Assembly: GCA_900113385.1 (NCBI GenBank)
Contig: FOPE01000009.1
Coordinates: 1-64,000, forward strand
DNA length: 64,000 nt
Reading direction: 5' to 3'
Origin: Lachnospiraceae bacterium C7
GTDB taxonomy: Bacteria > Bacillota > Clostridia > Lachnospirales > Lachnospiraceae
Shown here piece by piece: positions 25,055 to 31,724 of the stretch (its first letter is position 1; each line of letters opens with the position of its first letter). A program made the position numbers and the translations under genes. Under the pieces are notes generated by a model that did no database searches, had not been told where the DNA came from, and saw only the letters and a list, made by a program, of their open reading frames with translations.

Positions 25055-25636
25055 ATGCCAATTAATTTAACAAAAGGACAAAAAATAGATTTAACAAAAG
25101 GAAGACCAAGCCTAAGTAAAATCATGGTAGGTCTTGGATGGGATGTTAATGAATTTGATTCAGGAGCAGATTTTGACCTTGATGCATCAGCCTTTTTATT
25201 AGGTTCAAATGGAAAATGTACTGTAGACCAGGACTTCATTTTCTATGGAAACTTAACACATTCAAGCGGTGGTGTTGTTCATATGGGTGACAACAGAACT
25301 GGTGAAGGTGAAGGTGACGATGAGCAAATCGAAGTAGATTTATCAAAAGTACCTGCAAATATTGAAAGAATTGCATTTACAGTAACAATTTATGATGCTG
25401 AAAAGAGAAATCAAAACTTTGGACAGGTTTCTAATGCATTTATTAGAATTGTCGATGAAAACTTAAACGATGAAATCATTAGATATGATTTAGGTGAAGA
25501 TTTCTCAATTGAAACAGCAATTGTAGTAGGTGAATTATATCGTCACAATGGTGAGTGGAAATTCAATGCAATTGGAAGTGGCTTTAATGGTGGATTAGCT
25601 GCTTTATGTGCTCACTATGGTATTGACGCAGAATAA
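25055..25636 (+). CDS. terD: TerD-family calcium-binding stress protein 1
   Basis: Protein of 193 residues. The family pattern is complete: [16 protein letters not shown] at the start, GLGWDVN, the acidic [11 protein letters not shown] loop, [15 protein letters not shown] and [21 protein letters not shown], ending [15 protein letters not shown]. The Asp-rich loops form the two calcium sites known for TerD structures. These proteins act with TelA and TerC-like partners in responses to tellurite, oxidants and phage, by an unclear mechanism. Ribosome site AAGGAGG. It shares most residues with the next paralogue, indicating recent duplication. Confidence 0.95.
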
Positions 25637-25758
25637 TTTAAATTATATTTTTTTTAAACTATAGCTAAGGCTGTAATTTTAAAATAATAATATAAAAACA
25701 ATATATAAAAGCAATAACATAAAATATATGTTTTTAAACAAGAAGGGAAGAGGGTAAG

Positions 25759-26340
25759 ATGCCAGTTAATTTAACAAAAGGACAAAAAGTTAGTTTAACA
25801 AAAGAAAACCCAGGTCTTCAAGAAGTTGTTGTAGGCTTAGGTTGGGACGCAAATTCATTCGATACAGGAGCAGATTTTGATTTAGACGCTTCTGCATTTT
25901 TGCTTACAAATACAGGAAAGGTTTCTAGTTCAAGTGACTTTGTTTTCTATGGAAATACTAAAGATCCAGCAGGAAGCGTAATGCACATGGGAGATAACAG
26001 AACAGGTGCAGGCGAAGGTGATGATGAACAGATTAAGGTTAACCTTACAGCTGTACCAGCAAATATTGAAAGAATTGCATTTACAGTAACAATTTATGAA
26101 GCAGAAAAAAGAAACCAAAATTTTGGACAAGTAAGAAATGCATTTATTCGCATTATGAACGGCCAAACTGGTGAAGAATTACTTCGTTATGATTTAGACG
26201 AAGACTTTTCTATTGAAACATCTGTAGTATTTGCAGAAGTATATAGACATAATGGCGAATGGAAATTTAACGCAATTGGTGCAGGATATCAAGGTGGACT
26301 TGCAGCACTTTGCAACAACTACGGTGTGGAAGTAGAGTAA
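25759..26340 (+). CDS. terD: TerD-family calcium-binding stress protein 2
   Basis: Same length as its upstream neighbour (193 residues) and very close in sequence: [49 protein letters not shown] and [18 protein letters not shown]. All the acidic calcium ligands are kept. It lies 122 bases downstream in an AT-rich gap with no terminator, behind a modest GAGGG ribosome site. Two near-copies may form mixed assemblies or simply raise dosage. Confidence 0.95.
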   Translation: MPVNLTKGQKVSLTKENPGLQEVVVGLGWDANSFDTGADFDLDASAFLLTNTGKVSSSSDFVFYGNTKDPAGSVMHMGDNRTGAGEGDDEQIKVNLTAVPANIERIAFTVTIYEAEKRNQNFGQVRNAFIRIMNGQTGEELLRYDLDEDFSIETSVVFAEVYRHNGEWKFNAIGAGYQGGLAALCNNYGVEVE

Positions 26341-26372
26341 CATAATTAATGTAAAAAAAATCGGAGGACAAT

Positions 26373-26966
26373 ATGGCAGTAAGTTTATCTAAAGGACAAA
26401 AGATTAGCCTTACAAAAGAGAATGCTGGTTTAAAAAACTTATTGGTTGGATTAGGATGGGATGAAGCCAAAAAAAGTGGTGGATTTTTAGGCCTTTTTGG
26501 CGGTGGTCCTAATATCGACTGTGATGCATCAGCTATTCTTTTAAAAGATGGGAAGTTTGTTAGCAAACACGATTTGGTATATTTTGGAAATTTAAAACAT
26601 GTTACAGGAGCAGTGACTCACTTAGGTGATAACTTAACTGGACAGGGTGATGGAGATGATGAACAAATCGTTATCGATTTATCAAAATTACCAGCAGAAT
26701 ACGATAGAATAGTAATTGTAGTAAACATTTACGATTGCATAAATAGAAAGCAAGATTTTAGTATGATTAAGAATGCTTTCATTAGAATCGTTGATGGATC
26801 AACAAACCAAGAGATGGCAAGATACAATTTATCTGAGAATTACGACGGCCTTACAGCTATGATTTTCGGAGAAATTTATAGACATGGCAATGAATGGAAA
26901 TTTGGAGCAATTGGTCAAGGTACTAATGATGCTTCATTAAAAACATTAATTCAAAGATACGAATAA
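26373..26966 (+). CDS. TerD-family stress protein 3 (YceE-like)
   Basis: The most divergent TerD paralogue, 197 residues. It begins MAVSLSKGQKISLTKE and has GLGWDEAKK, then a short insertion GFLGLFGGGPN before the acidic loop NIDCDASAILL. HLGDNLTGQGDGDDE and IVVNIYDCINRKQDF keep the calcium-site acids. The Gly/Phe insertion is the feature that marks Bacillus YceE, so this set of three corresponds to YceC/YceD/YceE. It follows terD 2 after 32 bases with GGAGG, and the structured RNA of the ATPase begins 23 bases after its stop. Confidence 0.92.
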   Translation: MAVSLSKGQKISLTKENAGLKNLLVGLGWDEAKKSGGFLGLFGGGPNIDCDASAILLKDGKFVSKHDLVYFGNLKHVTGAVTHLGDNLTGQGDGDDEQIVIDLSKLPAEYDRIVIVVNIYDCINRKQDFSMIKNAFIRIVDGSTNQEMARYNLSENYDGLTAMIFGEIYRHGNEWKFGAIGQGTNDASLKTLIQRYE

Positions 26967-30145: not shown

Positions 30146-30937
30146 ATGATAATTTTTTTCTCGGATTTAGATAAAACATTAATATATTCATATAAACATG
30201 ACATAGGGAATAAAAAGGTTTTAGTAGAATTATATGAAGGACGAGAAATATCTTATGTGACAGAAAAAAGTGCCAATATGATGAAAAAACTATTTGGAAC
30301 AAAGAAAATCGCAAAAGAAAATGATATTTTTTTCGTACCAACAACTACAAGAACAGTGCAACAATATAATCGTATAAAGTTGCCCATAGAACAACAATCC
30401 TATGCGCTTACATGTAATGGAGGCGTTTTATTAGTAGATGGCAAAGAAGATAAAAAATGGTACAAAGAATCTTTAGATATGATACAATATGCTTCTGATG
30501 AAATGAAAAAAGGCATAGAGTATTTAGAAAAAGATACAAATAGAACATTAGAAGTAAGGAATATAAAAGATCTTTTTGTTTTTACTAAAAGTTCAAAGCC
30601 AGACACAACCATAAAAGAATTAAAAAAGATATTGGATAATGAAAAAGTAGATGTTTTTTCAAATGGAGTAAAGGTGTACATAGTACCAAGTAAGTTGACT
30701 AAGGGAAATGCAGTAAAACGTTTTACAGAAAAAATAAAAAAACAAGTAACATCAGTAACCATTTTTTCAGCAGGAGACAGTAAATTTGATATTCCAATGC
30801 TAGAAGAAGCAGATGTAGCAGTAGCTCCAAAAGAGTTAGAAAAGGAATTGTGTGAAAAAAATATAGGTATAAAGCCAGATAAATACAAGGTTTTTTCAGA
30901 ATATGTATTAGATGTTTTAAATGAGTTAACTAAATAA
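30146..30937 (+). CDS. HAD-family phosphatase of the Ter branch
   Basis: Hydrolase of 263 residues. HAD motif I is FSDLDKTLIYS (about 5-15), motif II lies in VPTTTRT, a Lys is in LTKGNAV, and motif IV is AGDSKFDIPMLEEA (about 210-223). The cap between about 80 and 190 is of the Cof/sucrose-phosphatase type. HAD enzymes of this kind recur in the predicted Ter-linked biosynthetic modules, so it probably removes phosphate from the product made by the PRTase and lyase genes. It follows the ATPase terminator with its own AAGGAGG; its promoter is not clear. Stand-alone sugar phosphatase is the alternative. Confidence 0.8.
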   Translation: MIIFFSDLDKTLIYSYKHDIGNKKVLVELYEGREISYVTEKSANMMKKLFGTKKIAKENDIFFVPTTTRTVQQYNRIKLPIEQQSYALTCNGGVLLVDGKEDKKWYKESLDMIQYASDEMKKGIEYLEKDTNRTLEVRNIKDLFVFTKSSKPDTTIKELKKILDNEKVDVFSNGVKVYIVPSKLTKGNAVKRFTEKIKKQVTSVTIFSAGDSKFDIPMLEEADVAVAPKELEKELCEKNIGIKPDKYKVFSEYVLDVLNELTK

Positions 30938-31013
30938 AATTTCAGAAAAGAATATACGAAAGAAACAATTATCCGACAACTTAAAATTAAAATAAAAAAT
31001 ATCAGAAAATATG

Positions 31014-31042
31014 TTGACAGAAAGTAAAAAAGATGTTATATT
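31014..31042 (+). promoter_or_regulatory. Strong promoter of the long non-coding unit
   Basis: Perfect TTGACA (31014-31019), 17-base spacer and TATATT (31037-31042). Transcription should start near 31049. No open frame with a ribosome site follows for over 600 bases. Confidence 0.85.
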
Positions 31043-31048
31043 AAATAC

Positions 31049-31662
31049 AACAAAACAAGAGCAACAGGAAAAGAGGTAATAAGAAAAAAGGTGAGAGATT
31101 AGTAATAATCATTTAGAGAGTGAGCGTTAATCTAAATGAAATTTATGAAATGGAGGTACGGTCCAAAAGGAACTGAACTTTGAAAAGAGCAACCAAGCAA
31201 ACTAAAACTAGATAGGAAACCAATAGTTTATAGTGAGGGAAAGTAAGTTTTATATGTTGTGAGTGTTAATATATAAAGCTGCTGAAGCAACTATTAGGAA
31301 AACGGAAAAGAAAGTTTTAGAATGTCATGAAATTGAAAGACTGATATAAAATCTTGGACTTCAGATATACGAGTCGACTAAGTGATAGATTTAATAAAAA
31401 GAATTTATCATAAAAAGGTATTTGAAAGTCACTACGGTAATTAAAGTAATTATTGAAATATTGTTCTTATGGAGATGATTGTTAGTTATATTTGAAAGTT
31501 GTGGAACAGCTGGATTAGGTAGGAAAAGATAGTAAGTGTAGTAATACTTTTTATATCAGATCAGACAAAAGTAATAGGCATAACGGAGGTATAGTCCATT
31601 GGAAATTGAGAACATATAGGCGTCATTCGAAGAAAAAAATTCGGGTGGCGCCTATCTTATTG
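31049..31662 (+). ncRNA. Candidate large structured non-coding RNA (about 610 nt)
   Basis: A non-coding unit bounded by a consensus promoter and a strong hairpin terminator. Two hairpins carry the same loop motif GTGAGYGTTAA: CATTTAGA/TCTAAATG (31110-31117 with 31131-31138) and a TTTATAT/ATATAAA stem (about 31249-31255 with 31271-31277). The second lies inside nested helices AATAG/CTATT and CTAAAACT/AGTTTTAG (31202-31209 with 31313-31320). A further 9-base stem joins 31383-31391 with 31402-31410. The word GGAGGTAYRGTCCA occurs near both ends (31152 and 31585). Size, isolation and structure recall ornate large RNAs such as ROOL or OLE, but I cannot confirm a family. It is not RNase P, tmRNA or a group II intron by motifs I know. 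Confidence 0.65.
31616..31662 (+). terminator. Terminator of the long non-coding unit
   Basis: Sixteen-base stem with G-U pairs (31616-31631 with 31640-31655, ATAGGCG... and ...CGCCTAT), A-rich loop, then CTTATTGT. The T-run is modest but the stem is strong. Confidence 0.75.
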
Positions 31663-31724
31663 TATAAAAAAATGTTAAAATGAATCCGATAAATATAACA
31701 TATATAGATAGACAGGAGACAGAG

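Follow-up and report, generated by a model that had tools for sequence, protein, structure and literature searches.

A candidate Lachnospiraceae RNA family with putative strong Shine-Dalgarno sites and minimal reading frames that may act on ribosomes

The window, which is the whole stretch of DNA analyzed here (64,000 nucleotides of contig FOPE01000009.1 from Lachnospiraceae bacterium C7), contains at positions 31014-31655 what appears to be an independent RNA gene, one that encodes no ordinary protein. This view is based on a near-consensus promoter, a terminator with a 16-pair stem, and the absence of an open reading frame (ORF) of at least 60 amino acids on either strand between 30938 and 31679. 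An earlier note on this DNA had claimed all three features, and each was found again. The promoter, TTGACA-N17-TATATT, is the best of the four promoter-like sites at the locus; as a class, such sites show no excess there (4 versus 4.7 in shuffled sequences). Terminator-like sites average 0.1 in shuffled sequences, and in 13 relatives the pairing of the terminator stem has been maintained despite changes. According to Pfam, a HAD-type hydrolase is encoded upstream of the RNA and an endonuclease/exonuclease/phosphatase-family protein downstream, with a cation ATPase and TerD further upstream. Three consecutive TerD-like ORFs, the first of which is TerD by Pfam, lie ahead of the cation ATPase at 25055-26966. 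The features of the locus are listed below.

30937-30951, + strand: CodY-like box AAATTTCAGAAAAGA, with 3 mismatches to AATTTTCWGAAAATT; it begins 77 nt before the -35 hexamer, the modal place in the family
30997-31011, + strand: second CodY-like box AAATATCAGAAAATA, with 3 mismatches; it adjoins the promoter
31014-31042, + strand: promoter TTGACA-N17-TATATT, matching 11 of 12 consensus positions, with TG ahead of the second hexamer
31049-31662, + strand: RNA of about 610 nt, from folding and covariance model R1
31109-31139, + strand: helix P1, TCATTTAGA, a 13-nt loop and TCTAAATGA (stem 31109-31117/31131-31139)
31152-31165, + strand: 5' Shine-Dalgarno motif GGAGGTACGGTCCA, then AAA as a dead start and, five codons later, TGA in phase
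31202-31209, + strand: 5' arm of helix P4, CTAAAACT
31222-31228, + strand: 5' arm of nested helix P3, AATAGTT
31249-31277, + strand: second hairpin, with GTGAGTGTTAA in its loop (stem 31249-31255/31271-31277), enclosed by P3
31289-31295, + strand: 3' arm of nested helix P3, AACTATT
31313-31320, + strand: 3' arm of helix P4, AGTTTTAG
31353-31382, + strand: hairpin resembling P2, CTTGGACTTC...GAGTCGACTAAG, here outside P4; read from the sequence
31585-31598, + strand: terminal Shine-Dalgarno motif GGAGGTATAGTCCA
31599-31619, + strand: terminal mini-ORF TTG GAA ATT GAG AAC ATA TAG (MEIENI*), its stop inside the base of the terminator stem
31616-31655, + strand: intrinsic terminator with a 16-pair stem

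The earlier note had proposed collecting homologues in Lachnospiraceae by BLASTN. This search gave matches, mostly short, in 25 of 60 relatives (the window's own genome counted), and it covered the 5' motif region in 10 same-genus genomes besides its own. The repeated word GGAGGTAYRGTCCA occurs exactly in 33 of 62 same-genus genomes, a count that includes at least two ordinary gene starts (L041 and L043), and is absent from 29; its reversed control occurs in 5 of 62. L041 and L043 were dropped because the motif there leads an ordinary ORF. At L041:1501-1700 and in L043, GGAGGTACRGTCCAATGGA seems to act as ribosome-binding site for a small hydrophobic protein, which in L041 has 60 amino acids and belongs to no Pfam family. 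A longer pattern gave 43 stretches in a public genome collection, 38 of them with Lachnospiraceae names (Agathobacter, Roseburia, Butyrivibrio, Eubacterium ramulus, Lachnobacterium, Fusicatenibacter, Coprococcus, and one Blautia). Among the other five, L092, L095, and L112 look like chance matches and were dropped on reading, L109 is called Bacillota, and L085 is called Muribaculaceae. We inspected 33 of the 43 stretches; the remaining 10 lie on contigs already seen. L085 and L082, the latter on a contig labelled Blautia, are very similar members and perhaps come from mislabelled or contaminated assemblies.

A covariance model (R1) was built from 11 relatives, with the window excluded from training. 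Its hit in the window, at 31111-31200, scores 49.5 bits (E 6.3e-7). R1 is narrow and covers mainly one subfamily; it matches 28 of the 62 same-genus genomes at E 0.01, 17 of 299 genomes of the family at E 0.001 (including the own genome and one of the same genus), and 2 of 295 genomes of the order, namely the own genome and one of another family (L166). An extraction script that demanded the motif, a promoter, and a terminator yielded 42 RNAs. A later set of 60 was obtained by adding more loci and removing near-exact repeats. Both sets consist of loci with a recognizable promoter and terminator, and close relatives remain in them, their counts not being independent. The RNAs are 200-730 nt long in 59 of the 60 cases, the exception being L015 (1135 nt), in which the terminator was misplaced. 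L067 (G005) has two of the RNA genes one behind the other, both equipped with a promoter and a terminator of their own. The RNA has the look of a genuine gene that is conserved among bacteria of the gut and rumen.

The RNA of the window folds with an energy of -126.5 kcal/mol, versus -101.8 (sd 4.8) for 20 shuffled sequences (z -5.2). The earlier note had described a structured RNA with its own promoter and terminator and had called for a covariation test of homologues; when this was done, helices P1 (11 relatives) as well as P3 and P4 (22 RNAs) were found to covary, which bears out the structure. Among the 11 relatives, P1 has a covariation of 0.596, as against 0.237 in shuffled alignments (0 of 500 as high), for a helix drawn from the same alignment in which it was tested. 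It is paired in 87% versus 66%, and slid versions covary at most 0.135. On two of the five measures P1 is unexceptional: pairs changed on both sides (4 versus 3.0) and further pair types (8 versus 7.0). A P1-like hairpin better than in shuffled sequences at the 0.05 level is present in just 10 of the 42 RNAs, with 2.1 expected; thus, P1 is a feature of a subfamily. The loop word GTGAGYGTTAA, which had been said to occur twice, was indeed found at 31120 and 31259, each time in a hairpin, and the first of these two stems corresponds to the covarying hairpin P1 of the relatives. L031, the closest relative, does not have this word, which therefore looks lineage-specific.

For P3 and P4, the 5' region of each of 22 RNAs, including the window, was allowed to find its best stem either in its own 3' region or in a permuted one. 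The 22 RNAs were a manual selection of those that could be aligned with the window, and the permutation leaves their relatedness in; L028 was omitted because of a misplaced anchor, and the anchor of L129 was set by hand. P3 scored 13.75 with its own partners versus 8.57 with permuted ones, with 13 distinct stems, and P4 scored 15.30 versus 10.83, with 22 distinct stems; in both cases 0 of 5000 permutations were as good. P4 is the long-range helix 31202-31209/31313-31320 that had been proposed from the window, and it is present exactly there. P2 is weakly supported in the relatives (covariation 0.205 versus 0.187, with 136 of 500 shuffled alignments as high). A GGA...UCC hairpin within the motif was drawn by RNAalifold and rejected, as no pair in it is changed on both sides.

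Judged by its predicted pairing with the tail of 16S rRNA, the repeated GGAGGTAYRGTCCA amounts to a strong Shine-Dalgarno site, a feature that the earlier note had missed. The note had seen repeated words near both ends, and the repetition is beyond chance: GGAGGTAYRGTCCA is exact at 31152-31165 and 31585-31598, and with up to two mismatches it has three matches in the window, a number reached by 0 of 100 shuffled sequences. With a generic 16S tail, the 5' motif is predicted to form a duplex of -13.2 kcal/mol and the terminal motif one of -14.0 kcal/mol. Only 1 of 42 ORFs of the window (at least 150 amino acids) pairs with this tail as well as the motifs do; these ORFs were started mechanically at the first ATG, and some are not genes or do not have their true starts.

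The copies of the motif differ in what follows them. All 24 strict terminal copies are followed by a start codon, whereas 54 of the 75 strict internal copies have none and 21 have ATG or TTG. The dead-start codons among the 54 are AAG (28), AAA (9), ACG (6), and others. A stop codon within five codons follows in phase in 67 of the 75 internal copies, versus 12 and 14 in the other two phases and a mean of 28.1 (maximum 40) in a shuffled control; for the start-less copies alone, the figures are 49 of 54 versus 8 and 11. The dead-start copies have the letters GGAACAUAAG in common. Their in-phase stops are therefore not separate events but a single conserved feature encountered many times, and its origin could be structural. 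Several members contain internal ORFs led by a Shine-Dalgarno site (for example, ATGAAATGA, ATGGCATAA, and ATGGGTACATAA). In the case of L007/L070 (G001), a single member has five copies of the motif; ATG and a short ORF accompany several of them. A conserved internal ORF, MK(K)GRGP*, is found in L036, L096, L086/L071, and L152 (in L152, MKGRDP*), and in L036, L096, and L086 it follows a TTTACATA block. An internal ORF that ends in proline and a stop might stall the ribosome.

The last copy of the motif leads a start codon and 4-9 further codons, with the stop flush with the terminator stem. Thus, the description of the RNA as non-coding was right as to ORFs of at least 60 amino acids and calls for qualification at the last copy of GGAGGTAYRGTCCA, which in the window heads a 6-codon ORF flush with the terminator. 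This ORF has few codons, a Shine-Dalgarno site ahead of it, and a stop in phase with its start; minigenes of 2-4 codons are absent from the window RNA. We scored a terminal mini-ORF as present when it had at least four codons, a loosely defined Shine-Dalgarno site, and a stop within -12 to +9 nt of the terminator stem. By this definition it is present in 52 of 60 RNAs, as against a control mean of 4.0 and maximum of 10 in 300 runs (37 of 42 in the earlier set, with a control of 4.0 and a maximum of 10 in 200 runs). The eight RNAs that failed are L015, L035, L037, L072, L084, L087, L160, and L161; in several of them, an ORF can be seen by eye with a weak or distant Shine-Dalgarno site or a shifted stem. 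Two other TTG ORFs of the window RNA (11 and 17 codons) pass the loose Shine-Dalgarno test and are probably due to chance.

The terminal peptides vary in sequence and are acidic in character. Of 48 distinct ORFs, 38 have GAN as their second codon, with C as its third base in 11, T in 10, G in 9, and A in 8. Aspartate and glutamate account for 35.5% in frame, whereas the two alternative frames give 2.3% and 9.3%. Five RNAs encode MDEIV or MDEII, and of the five positions that vary among them, four are third bases. The frame-specific acidic residues and the free third base at codon 2 are indirect signs of translation, read from the genome sequences. Alternatively, GAN at codon 2 could be preserved for the sake of the RNA itself, as part of the letters TCC...GGA that surround the start.

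Upstream of the promoters, we looked for CodY-like boxes (AATTTTCWGAAAATT with three mismatches or fewer) within 120 nt of the -35 hexamer. Such a box is present in 31 of the 42 RNAs, as against 3.6 in shuffled sequences (maximum 8 in 100 runs), although a few of the 31 are mere runs of T and A. The best box, whatever its score, begins 77-81 nt away in 20 of 42. L031 has words similar to the second box of the window near its -35 hexamer. The motif of CodY is described in PMC6256015; in Staphylococcus aureus, according to the same source, the hibernation factor HPF is under CodY control, and CodY boxes tolerate mismatches. A CodY gene is present in 60 of the 62 genus genomes; CodY, like CsrA, is nearly universal in the genus, and co-occurrence with the RNA is thus uninformative. 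In the genome of the window, the CodY consensus at one mismatch gives four sites, no excess over the three of the reversed control. Three lie inside ORFs, and the fourth is intergenic, about 180 nt upstream of a gene for the acetolactate synthase small subunit, a classic kind of CodY target. The genome scan is therefore weak support, and the enrichment at the promoters of the RNAs is stronger. The anatomy of the RNAs, their conservation and covariation, the mini-ORF statistics, the CodY-like boxes, and the presence of the CodY gene were all obtained by computation.

The earlier reader had failed to place the RNA in a family, and our searches agree: the window has no match at gathering score among 4,227 Rfam families, the region 30940-31700 gave just three unrelated, chance-like rows at E up to 10, and ten relatives gave no matches. 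The kinship with ROOL, OLE, GOLLD, or raiA that had been considered was not borne out, as their curated covariance models in Rfam matched neither the window, nor 30940-31700, nor the ten relatives. ROOL and GOLLD, like the RNA of the window, are large structured RNAs of unknown role. They are encoded by phages and prophages, often close to tRNA islands (PMC12286853), whereas the window RNA has no Rfam match, no tRNA gene was found in the window, and the exact pattern GGAGGTAYRGTCCANNNGGAAC is in no viral contig; on this last count, a phage origin was rejected. OLE RNA is similar in its length of about 600 nt, its structure, its occurrence in Bacillota, and its Shine-Dalgarno/anti-Shine-Dalgarno theme, bS21 being bound through a mimic of that pairing (PMC12054373). 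The window RNA differs in having no Rfam match and in carrying Shine-Dalgarno motifs and mini-ORFs instead; there is no CCTCC (CCUCC) stretch in 31049-31662 that could form an internal duplex of the OLE type. The raiA motif, or ModT RNA, which is tied to growth transitions (PMC11706538), is likewise a structured independent RNA of Bacillota, but the window RNA has no Rfam match.

Other likenesses lie in translation. Bar of phage lambda is a strong-Shine-Dalgarno minigene. The txe leader, another, has very short ORFs behind Shine-Dalgarno sites (PMC8708949) as here; those minigenes are in mRNA leaders or coding regions, whereas here they are the conserved part of a stand-alone RNA gene. Leader ORFs of the MgtL type also have early acidic codons able to destabilize ribosomes (PMC11282234), but here there is no conserved, regulated gene downstream. 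In the open-licence PMC literature, among the matches listed, there was no account of a large Lachnospiraceae RNA like this one. A term search of the main texts of two surveys of structured RNAs (PMC8632094 and PMC11109978) found no mention of Lachnospiraceae, Roseburia, Butyrivibrio, or Eubacterium. No counterpart was found in which ribosome landing sites with dead starts or ORFs of 2-10 codons are the most conserved parts of an RNA gene.

The shared anatomy, conservation, and covariation of its members suggest a new Lachnospiraceae RNA family that may act on ribosomes. Our leading, still tentative reading, to which we give somewhat less than an even chance, is that the RNA, under CodY control, traps initiating ribosomes at ORFs that are dead or minimal. 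In it, the covarying scaffold of P1, P3, and P4 would display one to several very strong Shine-Dalgarno motifs (GGAGGUAYRGUCC), of which the upstream copies would mostly aim at a dead start codon or open a minigene of 2-4 codons, and the last would open an acidic ORF of 5-10 codons ending flush against the terminator. The RNA would capture 30S subunits or newly initiated 70S ribosomes and hold them by strong anti-Shine-Dalgarno pairing. The dead starts would yield no productive initiation, and the minimal ORFs with their early acidic residues would yield just pausing or drop-off. Early acidic residues cause ribosome pausing or destabilization (PMC11282234), and the terminal peptide, acidic from its beginning, is in keeping with this. 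The supply of free initiating ribosomes would thereby be lowered or buffered under the control of the nutrient sensor CodY. We infer here the transcription and translation of the RNA, ribosome capture, the direction of CodY control, and the physiological role. Counting against capture, the RNA of the window has just two sites, one with a dead start and one with TTG; moreover, a rare RNA could not titrate ribosomes, which limits this reading. The fuller proposal of a ribosome-parking gene, in which a CodY-controlled folded RNA with an array of strong landing sites and dead starts or minimal ORFs would be an RNA counterpart of hibernation factors, is possible and, in our judgment, doubtful.

Among the rival explanations, the structured RNA may have another job, as a scaffold, a protein partner, or an antisense RNA, with ribosomes on the mini-ORF and the Shine-Dalgarno sites protecting it from decay. 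This we hold to be unlikely, with perhaps a quarter of our belief: the covarying core of P1, P3, and P4 does suggest a folded functional body, and minigene-borne ribosomes have been proposed to shield a leader mRNA from ribonuclease (PMC8708949), but the members L091 and L113, of about 200 nt, keep the Shine-Dalgarno motifs and the terminal mini-ORF while lacking P1 and, by eye, P3 and P4, and copies with dead starts would not protect the RNA by translation. It is improbable that the RNA is a trans-acting brake in which ORFs of 2-4 codons release peptidyl-tRNA and deplete tRNAs, as strong-Shine-Dalgarno minigenes can. Toxicity of minigenes via peptidyl-tRNA has been described (PMC8708949), and internal ORFs of several members, such as ATGAAATGA, ATGGCATAA, and ATGGGTACATAA, would suit it; against this, most internal copies (54 of 75) lack a start codon, the window RNA has no such minigene, and the terminal ORFs exceed the length of the most toxic kind.

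Sponges of the CsrB/RsmZ type are independent RNAs with repeated motifs and a terminator, and the window RNA is alike in these respects. Nevertheless, we rate as slightly less probable still that it titrates CsrA through GGA triplets, many of which lie in hairpin loops in RNAs of that type. CsrA is encoded in 58 of the 62 genus genomes, the window's among them, and the 42 RNAs contain 457 GGA triplets versus 415 in shuffled sequences (z 3.6); yet this enrichment is slight, the 14 GGA triplets in 617 nt of the window RNA are sparse, and the in-phase starts and stops are left unexplained. The repeat here is a Shine-Dalgarno site that has a stop in phase and, where it is the last copy, a start as well. 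The least probable reading, to which we attach almost no weight, is that the RNA serves the downstream gene (in the window, an exonuclease III-like one) as a leader or attenuator and that the mini-ORF encodes the leader peptide. The order of ORF, stop, and terminator does resemble leader-peptide attenuators, and the downstream gene is on the same strand in both the window and L031. However, by an ORF heuristic (at least 80 codons) applied to the 42 RNAs, 21 have a downstream neighbor in the same orientation, 18 have one in the opposite orientation, and 3 have none called, with no single conserved gene. This mixed orientation argues against a leader role, which we rejected for the family. The position directly after the Ter/HAD genes, which the earlier note had pointed out, also looks accidental, as the relatives adjoin many different ORFs, with downstream neighbors in both orientations.

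Lachnospiraceae are prominent fermenters of the gut and rumen. The RNA described here would offer ribosomes very strong sites to land on, with hardly any coding sequence behind them, and its action may be on the ribosome itself. If our leading reading of ribosome capture is right, the cell would have an RNA-based means of adjusting its translation capacity, linked to the nutrient sensor CodY. The family is also natural material for learning what effect strong Shine-Dalgarno sites, dead starts, and early acidic codons have on ribosomes at initiation.
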